Source of the DNA: Bradyrhizobium sp. WSM1417
GTDB lineage: Bacteria > Pseudomonadota > Alphaproteobacteria > Rhizobiales > Xanthobacteraceae
Assembly: GCF_000515415.1 (NCBI RefSeq)
Contig: NZ_KI911783.1
Location: forward strand, 3,710,392-3,774,391
DNA: 64,000 nucleotides
Reading direction: 5' to 3'
The position numbers and the translations under genes were made by a program. Positions 31,605 to 38,951 of this stretch are shown here, in pieces. The notes beneath the pieces were generated by a model. The model was given only the letters and a program-made list of their open reading frames with translations, ran no database searches and had not been told where the DNA came from. The stretch's first letter is position 1; each line of letters begins with the position of its first letter.

Positions 31605-31618
31605 TTGACGCAGGTCAA
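31605..31618. promoter_or_regulatory. FNR/FixK-type box between ThDP enzyme and P-type ATPase
   Basis: TTGACGCAGGTCAA is a TTGAC-N4-GTCAA inverted repeat matching TTGA-N6-TCAA. It lies 124 bp before the ATPase ATG and 152 bp before the ThDP enzyme ATG, so it could serve either direction. A class II arrangement would give a transcript start near 31653 for the ATPase. The related box at 38938-38951 shares its first nine bases. Confidence 0.6.
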
Positions 31619-31741: not shown

Positions 31742-34273
31742 ATGCAGGGGCTGACCGCGTCCGAAGCGTTGGCCCGGCTCAAGGCCGAAGGCTTCAATGA
31801 GTTGCCTCCGACGGGCGGGCGCACGATCGGGGGCCTCATCCTCGACGTTCTGCGTGAGCCCATGCTGCTGTTGCTGCTGGCCGGCGGGGTGATCTATTTT
31901 GTCCTGGGCGATCTCGGCGAGGCCTTGCTGCTCCTCGTCCTTGCGTCGATCTCGATTGTCATCACCATCGTGCAGGAAGCGCGCACCGAACGCGTGCTCG
32001 AATCGTTGCGGGATCTGACCAGTCCCCGCGCGCTTGTGATCCGCGCAGGCGAACGCATCCGTATTCCCGGCCGCGAGGTCGTTCGCGGCGACCTGATTGT
32101 GCTCTCCGAGGGGGACCGCGTGGCGGCCGACGCCAGCGTCGTTCAATGCGACGATCTGCTGCTGGATGAATCGCTGCTGACGGGGGAGTCCGTTCCGGTC
32201 CGAAAGCAGGCAAGTCCCGCTCTCGAACAGCCGCGCACGCCGCATGCCGGCGGTGACGACCAGCCGTTTGTGTTCTCCGGCACGCTGGTGGTGCGGGGCA
32301 GCGGCGTGGCCGAAGTCCTGTCGACCGGAATCCGGAGCGAGATCGGCAAGATCGGACAATCGCTCAGTGCCTTGGTGACGGAAACGCCACGCCTGCAGCA
32401 GCAGACCACGCGCCTGGTGACGATGTTTGCCATTGCCAGCGCCTTCGTCATCGCGTTGACCGTACTCCTCTACGGAATCTACCGCGGCGGCTGGCTGGAG
32501 GGCGTGCTGGCAGGCATCGCGCTTGGCATGTCGATGCTTCCCGAGGAGTTTCCCGTCGTGCTGACGGTGTTCCTCGCCATGGGCGCCTGGCGCATCTCAC
32601 AGGCTCGCGTGTTGACGCGGCGCGCCTCGGCGATCGAATCGCTGGGCGCAGCAACCGTGCTCTGCACGGACAAAACGGGCACGTTGACGGAGAACCGCAT
32701 GACGGTCGCGCGCCTGGTGCTGCCCGGCGGCACGCAATACACGCCTGGCGCCGCGGCGCGCCCTGAACCTGGGTTCGATCCGCTGATCGAAACCGGGGTT
32801 CTGGCCTGCGTTCCGGAGCCGTTCGATCCCATGGAAAAAGCGTTGCATTCGCTCGGACCCGGCACAGGGACCGGCCGACAGCTCGTGCAGAGCTACGGGT
32901 TGCGTCACGACCTCCTCGCGATGTCGAACGTATGGCGGGGAAGCGGTGACGAATGCGTTGTCGCAGCAAAGGGGGCACCGGAAGCGATCGGCTCGCTGTG
33001 CGCAATGAGCGCGGAAGAGCTGTCTGAATTGCGGGCACGTGTCGATGCTCTCGCTCGGGAAGGGCTTCGCGTGCTTGGCGTGGCGCGAGCGGCTTGCGCG
33101 GAGACGTCTCTTCCCGAGACACAACGCGGCTTTGCTTTCCGCTTCTGCGGCCTGACCGGTTTTGCGGATCCACTGCGGCCGCAAGTCGAGGGCGCCGTTG
33201 CCGAATGCCGCTCTGCAGGCATTCGTGTCGTCATGATCACTGGCGACTATCCGGCGACCGCATCTGCGATCGCGACGCGGGCGGGCCTCGATCCCCGGCG
33301 CGTCCTGACCGGAGCGGATGTCGAAAGCATGACCGATGCCGAACTCGCCCGGGCGGCGCGCGAACAAACCGTCTTTGCCCGAATTGCGCCGGCTCAGAAA
33401 CTGCGCATCGTCAATGTGCTCAAGGGCGCCGGCGAAATCGTCGCCATGACGGGCGACGGCGTCAACGACGCGCCCTCGCTGAAGGCTGCCCATATCGGCA
33501 TTGCCATGGGCGGGCGCGGCACCGACGTGGCGCGCGAAGCGTCTTCGATCGTTCTGCTCGACGACGATTTCGGCTCGATCGTGAAGGCGATTCGGCTCGG
33601 CCGCCGGATCTATGACAACCTTCGCAAGGCGATGAGCTTTATCCTCGCGGTGCATGTTCCGATTGCGGGGCTTGCGCTGTTGCCGCTGCTGACCGGGATG
33701 CCGCTGCTGTTCGGGCCGGTCCACATTGCGTTTCTCGAAATGATCATCGATCCCGTCTGCTCACTGGTTTTCGAGGCCGAGACCGAAGAGCGCGACGTGA
33801 TGCGGCGGCCGCCACGCGCGCCGGACGAGCCGCTGCTGCCAAGGTCCCTGCTGGTCTGGTCGGCGCTGCAGGGCGGTCTTGCGCTGGCCCTGACCGGCGG
33901 CATGATGGTGATGGCGAATAGCTACGGCATGCCGGAGAAGGAGGTGCGGGCGCTGACGTTCTTCTCGCTGGTGCTGGTGATCGTGAGCCTGATCTTCGTC
34001 AACCGCTCGTTCTCGACATCGCTTGTCGAAGCCTTCACCAGGCCGAACCGGACACTGGCCGTCATTGTCGTGTTCGTGACCGCCGTGCTCGCCCTGAGCC
34101 TTGCTTGGCCGCCTGCTGCGGAGCTGTTTCGGTTCGGCCCGCTGCATGCCGACGATCTCGCCGTCACGGTGGCGGCGGCGGTGGCTTCCCTGGTGTTGCT
34201 GGAACTGTCGAAATACCCGTTGCGCCATCGCTGGCCTGCCAGAGCCCCTAGCCCGCACGAAAGTTTGCCCTGA
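31742..34273 (+). CDS. Cation-translocating P-type ATPase, P2-like with atypical ion site
   Basis: The product is 843 aa. It has an N-terminal cation-ATPase domain, the actuator TGES motif (LLTGESVPV), phosphorylation site D310 in DKTGTLT, MVITGDYP-type and TGDGVNDAPSL hinge motifs, and ten predicted helices. No CPx metal motif or N-terminal metal domain is present. TM4 has PEEFP (267-271) where Ca2+ pumps have PEGLP, and TM6 has LEMIID (665-670) where Ca2+ pumps usually have Asn and Asp. Many bacterial ATPases share this variant and their ion is not established. A short frame (31707-31754, 15 codons) ends just after the start, possibly coupling translation. An FNR/FixK-type box lies upstream. 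Confidence 0.9.
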   Translation: MQGLTASEALARLKAEGFNELPPTGGRTIGGLILDVLREPMLLLLLAGGVIYFVLGDLGEALLLLVLASISIVITIVQEARTERVLESLRDLTSPRALVIRAGERIRIPGREVVRGDLIVLSEGDRVAADASVVQCDDLLLDESLLTGESVPVRKQASPALEQPRTPHAGGDDQPFVFSGTLVVRGSGVAEVLSTGIRSEIGKIGQSLSALVTETPRLQQQTTRLVTMFAIASAFVIALTVLLYGIYRGGWLEGVLAGIALGMSMLPEEFPVVLTVFLAMGAWRISQARVLTRRASAIESLGAATVLCTDKTGTLTENRMTVARLVLPGGTQYTPGAAARPEPGFDPLIETGVLACVPEPFDPMEKALHSLGPGTGTGRQLVQSYGLRHDLLAMSNVWRGSGDECVVAAKGAPEAIGSLCAMSAEELSELRARVDALAREGLRVLGVARAACAETSLPETQRGFAFRFCGLTGFADPLRPQVEGAVAECRSAGIRVVMITGDYPATASAIATRAGLDPRRVLTGADVESMTDAELARAAREQTVFARIAPAQKLRIVNVLKGAGEIVAMTGDGVNDAPSLKAAHIGIAMGGRGTDVAREASSIVLLDDDFGSIVKAIRLGRRIYDNLRKAMSFILAVHVPIAGLALLPLLTGMPLLFGPVHIAFLEMIIDPVCSLVFEAETEERDVMRRPPRAPDEPLLPRSLLVWSALQGGLALALTGGMMVMANSYGMPEKEVRALTFFSLVLVIVSLIFVNRSFSTSLVEAFTRPNRTLAVIVVFVTAVLALSLAWPPAAELFRFGPLHADDLAVTVAAAVASLVLLELSKYPLRHRWPARAPSPHESLP

Positions 34274-34829: not shown

Positions 34830-36425
34830 CTATCCATTCTCCTGCAGCGCCCGCCGCAGCCTTCGGATGATGACGCCGCGGGCGCGGTCGTCGGCGGCGG
34901 CTGCGACGCGGTCGTTGATGTCGAGCATGAGTTCCGACATCTCGTTGTGCCAGTCGAGACGGGTTACGGCTTCCGGCGTCAGCCTGCGTCGATGGTCGAC
35001 ATCGAGCACGCGCGGATCGGGGGTCGAGAGCTCATAGACGTCGTCCAGCATCGGCTGATAAATCTTCCCCGCCGGAAGGATACGTTCGGCGACGCGCTCG
35101 GCAAGACCCGCAATCGCGTTCTCTTCGCCATGGATCAGGAACAGGCCGCGCGCGATCGGACGGCGCGCAGCGATCCAGCGGGCGATGCCGGCGCCGTCGG
35201 CATGTCCGGAATATTCGTCGATCATCCGGATCCGCGCCGCGACCCGGATCTCCTCGCCCTGGATCCGCACCGCCTTGGTGCCGTTCTGGAGGAACCGGCC
35301 GAGCGTGCCGTTGGCCTGGAAGCCGGTGAGCAGCACGGTCGCATGCGCGTTCCACAGCCAGTGCTTCAGATGATGGCGGATACGGCCGGCATCGCACATG
35401 CCGCTGGCCGCGATGATGATGTGAAAGCCGGAGAGCCGCATGATCGCCTTGCTCTCGGCCACCGTCTCGGTGAACTTGAGATGCGGCGAGTTAAGCAGAC
35501 GGTTGGCATCGACGGTCTGATCGAGGCTCGTCGCGTTCTGCCGGAACACCTCGGTTGCATGGATCGCGAGCGGAGAATCCAGGAAGATCGGCTCTGCCGG
35601 AATCTCGCCGCGCTCCATCAGATCGACAAGGTCGACGATCAGTTCCTGGGTGCGCTCGACTGCGAAGGCAGGGATGAGCAGGGCGCCCTTGGCGGCCGCG
35701 GCATCGCGGACCTCGGTCGCAAGATGCTGCCGGCGCTGCTCCGGCGTCGTGACGGCACGCACGCGGTCGCCATAGGTTGACTCGGACATGACGTAGTCGA
35801 GGTCCGACGGCGCCTGCGGATCGGGCTGGAGCAGCTTAGCCTCGGGGCCGACGTCGCCGGAGAGCAGCACGCGCAATGGGCGCGTTGCACCCGCATCGGC
35901 AAATTCGAGCTCGATCGAGGCGGACCCGAGCAGATGGCCCGCGTTCCAGTAGCGCGCGCGAACGCCGGATATCACGTCGATCCAGCGTTCATAGTCGACG
36001 GGACGGAACGATTGCAGCGTTGCGAGCGCGTCTGCTTGCGTGTAGATCGGCTCGACCTCCTTCCGGCCACGCGCCGCGTTGCGCCGGTTGAGTTGTGCAA
36101 CTTCGGACTCCTGGATGTTGCCGGCGTCGGGTAGCATCCAGGAGCAGAGGTCGATCGTGCCCCGCGTCGCCAGGATCGGCCCGCCAAATCCCTCGCGGAC
36201 GAGCTTTGGCAGCAATCCGCTGTGGTCGATATGGGCGTGCGTGAGAAGCACCGCATCGATATCGGCGGGCCGGAAGGGAAACCCGCTGTAGTTGAGCTCC
36301 TTGAGCGTCTTCTGCCCCTGGAACAGACCGCAATCGACCAGGAAGCGGCCAGAGGCGGTCTGGAAAAGATAGCTCGAGCCAGTCACGGTGCGGGCGGCGC
36401 CGCAAAATCGAACGGTGATGCTCAT
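34830..36425 (-). CDS. Metallo-beta-lactamase/beta-CASP RNA nuclease-like protein
   Basis: The product is 531 aa. The N-terminal MBL domain has FLVDCGLFQG and the zinc motif THAHIDHSG (motif 2), a later NAGHLLGSASIELEF (motif 3) and DVGPEAK-type strand. The inserted beta-CASP domain (about 200-330) includes LIPAFAVERTQELIVDL and FLDSPLAIHATEVF. The RNA-specificity part follows with ASGMCDAGRIRHHLKH, VLLTGFQANGTLGR and the closing IHGEENA. These match CPSF73/RNase J-like bacterial nucleases. It is the last gene of a coupled operon (ATGA overlap with the PRPP-synthetase-like gene). An RNase role is inferred from family. Confidence 0.9.
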   Translation of the reverse strand: MSITVRFCGAARTVTGSSYLFQTASGRFLVDCGLFQGQKTLKELNYSGFPFRPADIDAVLLTHAHIDHSGLLPKLVREGFGGPILATRGTIDLCSWMLPDAGNIQESEVAQLNRRNAARGRKEVEPIYTQADALATLQSFRPVDYERWIDVISGVRARYWNAGHLLGSASIELEFADAGATRPLRVLLSGDVGPEAKLLQPDPQAPSDLDYVMSESTYGDRVRAVTTPEQRRQHLATEVRDAAAAKGALLIPAFAVERTQELIVDLVDLMERGEIPAEPIFLDSPLAIHATEVFRQNATSLDQTVDANRLLNSPHLKFTETVAESKAIMRLSGFHIIIAASGMCDAGRIRHHLKHWLWNAHATVLLTGFQANGTLGRFLQNGTKAVRIQGEEIRVAARIRMIDEYSGHADGAGIARWIAARRPIARGLFLIHGEENAIAGLAERVAERILPAGKIYQPMLDDVYELSTPDPRVLDVDHRRRLTPEAVTRLDWHNEMSELMLDINDRVAAAADDRARGVIIRRLRRALQENG

Positions 36426-37342
36426 GTTGTCGTCTCCGGCAAAGGTGTCTGGCTCAGTTCGGACCGCAGGGCGGCCGCGAGAGTCTCGTCGAGCGCGATC
36501 GCGTTGGTCGGATGCGGCACGCTGTCGGTCGAGCGGATGGAGCGGATGCCGGCGTCGCTGAACGCCGCGACCATTTCGGGCGGAAAGAGGGCATGCGTCA
36601 CGATTGCGTCTATGCCGGTCGCACCTGCGGCCTCGAGCGCCTTCGCCGCAACCATCAGTGTGGCTCCGGAAGAGATGATGTCGTCAACCAGCAGCGCCGG
36701 GCGACCGGAGAGCAGGCCGGGATCGGCAAACTCGATTTGCACGGAACGATCGCCGTGACGCATCTTCCGGGCAACGGTATGCTGCAATTGGAGCCGCCGG
36801 GCGAGATCGCTCACCCATGGCTCGGATTCGGAATCGGGGCCGATCACGACGGTGGCCGGATCGACTCCAGTCTTTGCGAGGGTGTCCGCAATCGCCGGCA
36901 TAGCGGACAGATTTTCCGCCTCGATGCCTGGAAACACGAGCTCGATCTTGGCCGTGCGGTGCAAGTGCGCGTCGACCGTGACGACACGATCGACGATTCC
37001 TGCAAGGAGCCGGCCGACGGCGTGCTGGCTGATCGCTTCGCCGGGATGAAACGCCGCGTCCTGCCGCATGTAACACAGATACGGCGCCACCAGGACCAAG
37101 CGCTTTGCGCCCGCGCGTCGCAGTGCTTCACAGGCCAGCAGCAAGGCGATGAGCTTCTCGTTGGGCTGGTCCAGCGCGGCGTAGAGGATAACCGTGTCCG
37201 CGAGCGGGCCGATCGTGATACGCAGTTCGCCGTCTGGGAAATGGTGAAGATCAATGTCCTCGCAGGCAAGCCCGAGCTTCGTCGCCAGCCGCGCTGCCGC
37301 ACCCGTGGCCGAGGGCAGGCTCTGGAACCCGATCGTGCTCAC
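36422..37342 (-). CDS. Ribose-phosphate pyrophosphokinase homologue
   Basis: The product is 306 aa. Key PRPP-synthetase motifs are present: FPDGE (about 36-40), [10 protein letters not shown] (flexible catalytic region), VTVDAHLHR (metal-binding loop) and the ribose-phosphate loop [14 protein letters not shown]. It is shorter and more divergent than housekeeping Prs, and resembles the Prs-like proteins that accompany AMP-phosphorylase homologues. It may make PRPP or act on ribose 1,5-bisphosphate chemistry; only the first is known for the family. ATGA overlaps link it to the genes on both sides. Confidence 0.88.
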
Positions 37343-38880
37343 GGCGCGGTCCCGCCTTGGAGGGTATCCCGATCTTTGATGGCGTACCCGGCGTCGGCAG
37401 CGGTCGCAGTCGCCGCGAGATCGTACTCCGGCTGGTCGAAGGTGTAGACGCGGTAGAGCGGCTCGCCCTGCTCGACCCGGTCGCCGATCTTCTTGAACAG
37501 CCGAATGCCGGCGCCCTTGTCGAGCGGCGCGCCGGCGGTGCGTGCCAGGCGATTGAGTCGCAGGCAGTCGATCTCGGTGACGACGCCGTCGTGCGCGGCC
37601 TTGATGTCAAACGAGAGATGGCCGAGCTCGGTGCTGCAATTCGAGGGGCCCTGGGCGTCGATGATCCTCTGCATCTGCTTCAGCGCCGCTCCGTTATCGA
37701 GCAGCTCGCGGGCCCGCGCATAGCCTGCGCCGCCGCGCAGCTTCGGATCGTGTTCCAGAAGATGGGCAGCGAGGCGCAATGATTTCTCGCGCAGGTCGCG
37801 CGGGGCATCCGGGTCATTGCCGAGCACGGCCATCACGTCGTTGGCCTCGAGCACCGGCCCGATGCCGTTGCCGATCGGCTGGCGGCCGTCGGTTGTGATC
37901 ACTTCGACCGTGCGACCGAAGCGGTCGCCGACGAATTCGAACATTTTTCGCAGGCGCATCGCTTCGACGGCGCTGGTGACCTTCGCCGTCGGTCCGACAG
38001 GAATGTCGATCAACAGGTGCGTCGAGCCAGCCGCGATCTTCTTGGACATGATGGATGCGACCATCTGCTCGCGGGTATCGAGACTGAGCGGGCGTTCGAC
38101 CGAGATCAGGACGTCGTCGGCGGGCGATAAATTCACGTGTCCGCCCCAGATCAGGCATCCATTGCAGGTCGAGACGATCGCCTTCATCTCCTCGACCCCG
38201 ACATTCACCCGCGCCAGCACCTCCATCGTGTCGGCGGTCCCAGCCGGCGAGGTGATGGCGCGCGAGGACGTCTTGGGGATCGGCAGGCCGTGCGCGGCGA
38301 CGATGGGTACGACGACCATCGAGGTGCGATTGCCGGGAATGCCGCCGATGCAATGCTTGTCGACGACGATCGGGTCCGGCCACACCAGTTGCGTGCCGGC
38401 CTCGGCCATCGCAGCGGTAAGAGACAGGAGTTCATCACTCGTGATGAAGCTCGCCGAGCCGATCAGGAATGCGGCGATCTCCATGTCGGAGTAGCGGTAA
38501 TGTGCGAGATCATCGATGATCGCGCCGATTTCGGCGCGACTCAGCGTTCGTCCGCGAATTTTGGCGCGCACCGCCTCCAGGCTCTCCGGAGGGGAGGCGG
38601 GCGTGACCATGACCAGCGTGCCGGCGGCTTGCGCGAAACGCCGGAACGCAGGCTCGGAGAGGCCGATCTCGTCGGGGGCGGCCAGTGCGTCGTCGTCAGT
38701 GATCAAGAGCGTCGCGAGCAGCACCTTGCCGTCGAGACGAAGCTCGACCCGACTGAACCCGCGAAAGATGTCCGCACGCAGCGCCTTCGACCGCCTGGAA
38801 ATGACGACGACGTTCTCGCGGCCGGTATCGAGATTGACACGGCGGATCTTGAGTTGGGGACGTGAGAGGTCTGGATGCAT
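37339..38880 (-). CDS. AMP-phosphorylase / thymidine-phosphorylase family enzyme
   Basis: The product is 513 aa. It begins with a domain of about 85 residues ([20 protein letters not shown] ... [11 protein letters not shown]) that ordinary bacterial DeoA (about 440 aa) lacks but archaeal AMP phosphorylases have. The core follows: [53 protein letters not shown], and the C-terminal barrel domain ([17 protein letters not shown]...[18 protein letters not shown]). AMP phosphorylase converts NMP plus phosphate to ribose 1,5-bisphosphate and base. First gene of the operon; an FNR/FixK-like box lies 58-71 bp upstream. Annotation tools will probably call it thymidine phosphorylase. Confidence 0.88.
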
Positions 38881-38937: not shown

Positions 38938-38951
38938 TTGACGCAGATCAT
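38938..38951. promoter_or_regulatory. FNR/FixK-like box upstream of the AMP phosphorylase operon
   Basis: TTGACGCAGATCAT fits TTGA-N6-TCAA with one mismatch at the last base. Its centre is about 64 bp upstream of the minus-strand ATG at 38880, which would give a transcript start near 38903 and a leader of about 23 nt for a class II site. It shares TTGACGCAG with the box at 31605-31618. Confidence 0.5.

Follow-up and report, generated by a model that had tools for sequence, protein, structure and literature searches.

Gene content of the locus

The stretch analysed here, hereafter the window, comprises 64,000 nucleotides (bases 3710392-3774391) of the single 8.05 Mb contig of Bradyrhizobium sp. 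WSM1417, a Bradyrhizobium-like chromosome. We consider three genes on its minus strand, predicted to encode a nucleoside 5′-monophosphate (NMP) phosphorylase of the AMP phosphorylase type, a paralogue of phosphoribosyl pyrophosphate (PRPP) synthetase (Prs) and a beta-CASP nuclease. All three open reading frames of the original prediction are real, with coordinates and strand as given there, and both of its stop/start overlaps exist; the two had been read as ATGA, which holds for the second, while the first is GTGA. The features are, in order of transcription:

38938..38951, minus strand: FixK/FNR-like box ATGATCTGCGTCAA; relative to the gene 1 ATG, its first base is at -71
37339..38880, minus strand: gene 1, predicted AMP-phosphorylase-type NMP phosphorylase, 513 aa (TIGR02645 and TIGR03327 scores, 4ga5 match, diagnostic columns)
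37339..37342, minus strand: GTGA stop/start overlap of genes 1 and 2, 4 nt
36422..37342, minus strand: gene 2, Prs paralogue (NF005537/PRK07199), 306 aa, GTG start (NF005537 score, residues, AlphaFold2 model, fold matches, co-inheritance)
36422..36425, minus strand: ATGA stop/start overlap of genes 2 and 3, 4 nt
34830..36425, minus strand: gene 3, metallo-beta-lactamase (MBL)-fold beta-CASP nuclease of TTHA0252 type, 531 aa (Pfam domains, TTHA0252 match, metal-binding motifs)

Phosphorylase type

In profile searches, gene 1 scores 744.6 bits against TIGR02645, above the cut-off of 434.6. Its top solved match by phmmer is the AMP phosphorylase of T. kodakarensis (4ga5; E 6.9e-100, residues 11-489), with pyrimidine and thymidine phosphorylases far behind (best E 5.7e-39). 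The alignment to 4ga5 starts at residue 11, so that gene 1 has the N-terminal domain not found in the classical enzymes. We also compared the 36 core columns at which 35 bacterial members of a phylum sample of 299 genomes (window gene included) differ in type from eight classical enzymes of that sample. Gene 1 carries the residue of its own type in all 36, and the T. kodakarensis enzyme agrees with the bacterial type in 29 and with the classical type in two. The nearest proteins show about 90% identity; where the first matches carry a name, they come from Bradyrhizobium, including one from B. diazoefficiens at 91%. As far as sequence goes, the AMP phosphorylase type proposed originally in preference to thymidine phosphorylase is well supported, with the qualification that the score against the AMP_phos equivalog TIGR03327 (485.7 bits) is below its cut-off of 535. 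From the family features and the PhnN fusions described below, the substrate would be an NMP and the product ribose 1,5-bisphosphate (R15P).

The sub-cut-off score would also fit a (deoxy)nucleoside phosphorylase, whose ribose 1-phosphate would be turned by phosphopentomutase into ribose 5-phosphate (R5P) for the Prs paralogue to use, and so would database names, relatives of gene 1 being commonly annotated ‘thymidine phosphorylase family protein’. We consider this improbable, as the E-value of the T. kodakarensis enzyme is some 60 orders of magnitude ahead of the other solved matches, the two classical rows displayed carry the bacterial-type residue at only 0 and 1 of the 36 columns, and the family occurs fused to PhnN, whose substrate is R15P (according to its NCBIfam name and to PMC11452294).

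The Prs paralogue occurs with the phosphorylase

In the phylum sample, 34 genomes are above the TIGR02645 cut-off and two more (G249 and G255) have strong matches below it, giving 36 genomes counted as phosphorylase-positive; NF005537 was searched in these and in 44 hand-chosen family-matched negatives. Thirty-three genomes exceed the NF005537 cut-off and all 33 are phosphorylase-positive, with none among the 44 negatives (best 159 bits). Three positives remain: G285, where a protein below the cut-off (299.6 bits) adjoins the phosphorylase, and G249 and G255, in which no NF005537 protein was found. The former of these two carries a PhnN-phosphorylase fusion, and in the latter the phosphorylase frame breaks off. 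A second, independent sample of 240 alphaproteobacterial genomes, with phosphorylase matches taken at E up to 1e-100, has 17 genomes above the NF005537 cut-off, again all with a phosphorylase match (in G506 partial and below the TIGR02645 cut-off). Neither gene is present in 205 genomes (Fisher p 1e-16, relatedness ignored). In 13 of these 17 genomes the two genes are adjacent; in three they are separated over contigs of a fragmented assembly, and in G456 over contigs of a five-contig genome.

In this second sample 18 of the 35 phosphorylase-positive genomes have no NF005537 protein, which overturned the rule that the phosphorylase always needs the paralogue, as 34/34 phylum genomes (the 33 and G285) had suggested. 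Since every genome above the NF005537 cut-off has the phosphorylase, yet about half of the phosphorylase genomes here do without NF005537, the dependence is one-way: the Prs paralogue implies the phosphorylase, a relation newly found here. Gene order agrees. We assembled 37 loci and, anchored on the Prs paralogue, the best 80 loci from named genomes (L126 of the latter and L054 of the other set are one locus). Among the 80, the phosphorylase is present in 79, and in 78 it lies directly upstream on the same strand within 350 nt. Two weaker exceptions were noted. In Bradyrhizobium nitroreducens TSA1 (L116, 8001-8918) the paralogue has no phosphorylase in the 16.9 kb stretch around it, and G342 has a protein of 312 bits, below the NF005537 cut-off, and no TIGR02645 match at 1e-100.

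Long open frames suggested a phosphorylase-Prs fusion in G246 and a nuclease-phosphorylase fusion in G154; a frame-by-frame check placed the domains in different frames, and both were therefore rejected. As side observations, proteins resembling CBS-domain proteins by eye flank the paralogue of L116 on both sides. Seven small genomes of 1.1-1.9 Mb (G300, G331, G338, G357, G359, G448, G453; some assemblies incomplete) have the phosphorylase and no convincing PRPP synthetase, their best NF005537 matches falling between 3e-16 and 5e-4. In four alphaproteobacterial loci (L190, L196, L203, L205), an AMP-phosphorylase-like gene stands beside heat-shock genes (dnaK, dnaJ, hrcA or grpE, by eye), in genomes that lack the Prs paralogue.

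PhnN joined to the phosphorylase

PhnN joins were all found where NF005537 was not detected above the cut-off (G249, G355, G447). PhnN-phosphorylase fusions of about 600 and 680 aa, which carry the NCBI name PhnN, occur in Caballeronia, Cupriavidus, Pseudomonas, Bosea and others. The five fusion sequences read all start with PhnN, and those scanned show PhnN above cut-off followed by the phosphorylase, with the N-terminal phosphorylase domain in the longer form. Within the bacterial phosphorylase family, the eight fusion rows group as a single clade (support 100/100). In G447 (L193), which has no NF005537 protein above the cut-off, a stand-alone PhnN above cut-off adjoins a stand-alone phosphorylase divergently. 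Because PhnN, the R15P kinase, is fused to or beside the phosphorylase, these joins argue for R15P as the phosphorylase product. Compared with the operon of the window, the fusions hold the same phosphorylase family joined to the enzyme that would use its product, but their rows form a separate clade, a kinase takes the place of the Prs and the context is of NAD type. Other Prs-less loci examined have no PhnN nearby, which disfavours PhnN as a general substitute.

The NAD-type context consists of nadC directly upstream of the fusion in all four fusion loci examined:

L180, 7998-10151: nadC, then PhnN-phosphorylase fusion
L181, 7959-10085: nadC, then PhnN-phosphorylase fusion
L071, 7281-9077: nadC, then PhnN-phosphorylase fusion
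L201, 7641-9674: nadC, then PhnN-phosphorylase fusion

Neighbouring nadC, phnN and bug27 genes have been described in Variovorax (PMC11452294), and the word ‘phosphorylase’ does not occur in the text of that paper. Possibly, nadC-fusion loci encode a route from nucleotide through PRPP to nicotinate mononucleotide that is hidden by annotation as PhnN. Transporter genes also lie beside two of them, for a tripartite tricarboxylate transporter (TTT) binding protein in L180 and a tripartite ATP-independent periplasmic (TRAP) transporter in L181.

Residues and possible reaction of the Prs paralogue

Gene 2 scores 387.3 bits against the ribose-phosphate diphosphokinase subfamily NF005537, above the cut-off of 322, and a separate housekeeping Prs is present in the genome. 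We compared 33 NF005537 proteins with 13 housekeeping Prs (12 fetched and the genome's own) at the nucleotide- and R5P-contacting residues named in the available parts of PMC9232217 and PMC6332680. The mapped residues are invariant in both groups, except for T225, which is not fully kept, and R99, which is not kept. Beside the catalytic residues the groups differ: R129 (33/33 paralogues) is Q, E172 (33/33) is G and W176 (32/33) is R in all 13 housekeeping enzymes. In a 24-row alignment, H128, R129, E172, W176 and D198 are invariant. The AlphaFold2 model has a mean pLDDT (predicted local distance difference test) of 94.8 and its best fold matches are Prs structures. By residues and model, gene 2 retains the catalytic residues and the fold of a Prs, with further invariant residues alongside, in line with the divergent PRPP synthetase proposed at the outset. 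It has fold and catalytic residues in common with the PRPP synthetases of M. jannaschii (1u9y) and T. volcanium (3mbi), and differs in the five invariant residues of its group and in its genetic tie to the phosphorylase.

An ordinary PRPP synthetase (R5P + ATP -> PRPP + AMP) without the usual ADP allostery, which never touches R15P, is a reading that we rate as quite plausible, at somewhat less than even odds. It would provide PRPP for the salvage of bases freed by the phosphorylase, which would consume AMP. The conserved contact residues and the agreement of fold and model with Prs structures speak for it, as does the E. coli allosteric-site loop (R102, S103, R105; PMC6332680, in the part available), which is altered in the paralogues and likewise in the aligned archaeal enzyme. 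It sits less well with the housekeeping Prs already in the genome, with the paralogue's tie to the phosphorylase and with the group-specific invariant residues that adjoin its catalytic ones, and it leaves the PhnN joins unexplained. We tentatively entertain, as a minority view, that gene 2 is instead a new R15P-handling enzyme, catalysing either R15P + ATP -> PRPP + ADP, as a stand-in for PhnN, or R15P + ADP -> R5P + ATP. Were this so, the PRPP-synthetase fold would gain a new reaction, and bacteria would have an R15P route needing neither RuBisCO nor R15P isomerase. With the second reaction, phosphorolysis of RNA nucleotides would conserve energy and feed phosphoketolase.

The beta-CASP nuclease

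Gene 3 has Lactamase_B, Beta-Casp and RMMBL domains (Pfam), its metal-binding motifs were located, and its closest solved relative is RNase TTHA0252 from Thermus (E 4.5e-68). Having the MBL, beta-CASP and RMMBL domains and the metal motifs, it is classed as a predicted beta-CASP ribonuclease of TTHA0252 type. The CPSF/RNase-J-like label given earlier can be retained in its first half, whereas RNase J is not borne out by these searches (of the 43 solved sequences matched, none carries the name RNase J). Gene 3 shares its domains with TTHA0252, and differs in a C-terminal extension of about 100 aa past the match.

Co-inheritance of all three genes had been proposed as a check. Genes 1 and 2 do travel together (33/33 and 17/17), but the nuclease is present in only 17/37 and 35/80 loci and is the least constant member of the three. 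Separately, three loci on Niveispirillum and Azospirillum plasmids (L185, L186, L187) have the phosphorylase followed directly by a beta-CASP nuclease, and no Prs paralogue lies in these stretches. HlyD, RbbA and ABC permease genes come after the nuclease in both Azospirillum loci.

FixK-like box and low-oxygen expression of the orthologous operon

The FixK-like box at 38938-38951 reads TTGACGCAGATCAT on the forward strand. As its motif occurs with up to one mismatch at 26 places in the window (mean 7.35 in simple letter shuffles), the box is weak alone and was rejected as sole evidence. Boxes upstream are enriched, at 29/75 loci versus 433/3950 random stretches (Fisher, relatedness ignored), though many of the 75 loci are close Bradyrhizobium relatives and these are therefore not 29 independent events. 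The orthologous operon of B. diazoefficiens (bll3117-bll3116-bll3115), part of its FixK2 regulon, has the same three genes and a box, ATGATCTGGGTCAA, near the same position, at -74 (PMC9104804, Table 2). According to that table, deletion of fixK2 at 0.5% O2 changed expression -6.6-fold for bll3117 and -30.6-fold for bll3115, as well as -10.0-fold for phosphoketolase bll2518 and -10.2-fold for acetate kinase bll2517, with putative boxes upstream. Protein levels rose under microoxic conditions, with log2 values of 2.1 for the phosphorylase, 4.4 for the Prs, 2.9 for the nuclease and 4.3 for phosphoketolase (PMC6515984, Table 2). Low-oxygen, FixK2-dependent expression of the orthologous operon is thus already published, and it supports what had been predicted from the box, as measured in B. 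diazoefficiens rather than in this strain. In the tables of these two papers the genes appear as regulated genes, and the parts available propose no joint function. The window genome also has a phosphoketolase gene (NF003621, 1660 bits). Its box, TTGACCTCACGCAA, matches the one reported for bll2518 letter for letter, and the first base lies at -90 relative to the called start.

Possible outlets for R15P and a proposed module for ribose phosphate recovery

In archaea, an R15P isomerase together with type III RuBisCO provides the outlet for R15P (stated in part in PMC8376864). Gene 1 is of the same AMP phosphorylase type as the enzyme of this AMP, or pentose-bisphosphate, pathway, whereas here a Prs paralogue occupies the place beside it and the archaeal outlet differs. 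A whole-genome search found no R15P isomerase, the sole match of the isomerase model being a sub-cut-off hit to MtnA outside the window; the single RuBisCO, also outside, scores 397.3 bits, below the type III cut-off of TIGR03326 (497.45). The absence of both from the window, noted originally, agrees with this whole-genome search. In the phylum sample, none of the 36 phosphorylase-positive genomes has an R15P isomerase above cut-off and 19 have RuBisCO, and we rejected the archaeal outlet for most genomes. PhnN is above cut-off in the window genome, where it could also convert R15P to PRPP. As a general outlet it was rejected, not being enriched in phosphorylase-positive genomes (9/36 versus 47/263 others, p 0.36, relatedness ignored). 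Fifteen of the 36 have none of the three above cut-off, two of them (G148, G236) being incomplete assemblies. The Prs paralogue is one clear suspect for R15P handling.

Phosphoketolase is found in 12/36 phosphorylase-positive and 36/263 other genomes of the phylum sample (p 0.006, relatedness ignored). It is co-directional with the phosphorylase-Prs pair in 5/37 loci (L046, L059, L064, L065, L068) and 2/80 (L111, L170). Five of these stretches also carry acetate kinase, namely L064, L065 (there on the opposite strand), L068, L111 and L170. In L064 and L065, phosphoketolase and the nuclease lie between the Prs paralogue and the phosphorylase; the order Prs, phosphoketolase, nuclease, phosphorylase is found on a plasmid in each of Rhizobium rosettiformans and Paracoccus sp. 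AK26, with the phosphoketolase annotated ‘xylulose 5-phosphate 3-epimerase’ and about 70% identical to the L065 protein. The fate of R15P, left open by the original prediction, is thus narrowed to PhnN and RuBisCO elsewhere in the genome, without a curated isomerase, and to a phosphoketolase that is a recurrent neighbour in other genomes. No paper pairing AMP phosphorylase with phosphoketolase was found in the open-access library searched.

With a probability of roughly 0.5, we propose that the operon is a module for recovering ribose phosphate from RNA at low oxygen, made up of the nuclease, the phosphorylase and a dedicated Prs partner with predicted activities. The beta-CASP nuclease would help to cut RNA, and the phosphorylase would split NMPs with phosphate into base and R15P. 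The Prs paralogue, by its association the phosphorylase's dedicated partner, would act at the R15P/PRPP/R5P node. Pentose phosphate might then leave as PRPP for salvage or, when respiration is limited, through phosphoketolase and acetate kinase as acetyl phosphate and ATP, a branch that we infer from gene order and shared regulation. If so, cells could draw on RNA as a reserve of energy and carbon when oxygen is low, and the labels ‘thymidine phosphorylase’ and ‘PhnN’ would in many cases be incorrect or incomplete. The three-gene module was not found as a biochemical unit in the literature reached.

Several observations weigh against this proposal. The phosphorylase falls short of the AMP_phos equivalog, and it occurs without the Prs paralogue in about half of the positive alphaproteobacterial genomes and, together with the nuclease, also in the three Azospirillaceae plasmid loci. 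The nuclease is missing from about half of the loci and PhnN is not enriched. There is no phosphoketolase alongside in 32/37 and 78/80 loci. In Table 2 of PMC6515984, the operon genes are unchanged in the soybean bacteroid column and are not marked as direct FixK2 targets. Alternatively, the module may make PRPP (NMP -> R15P -> PRPP) and not energy, so that ribose phosphate from RNA would reach other bases or enter NAD synthesis. The PhnN and Prs partner types are both named as PRPP-forming, and nadC, a PRPP user, stands directly upstream in the four fusion loci. We find this rather unlikely: only the fusion clade was seen with nadC, seven loci of the Prs-bearing form have phosphoketolase in line, and the low-oxygen regulation in common with phosphoketolase and acetate kinase (PMC9104804, Table 2) likewise points to catabolism.

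Neighbouring features

A gene for a cation-transporting P-type ATPase (31742-34273) is convergent with the operon, and a perfect FixK-like palindrome, TTGACGCAGGTCAA, lies at 31605-31618, 124 nt before it.

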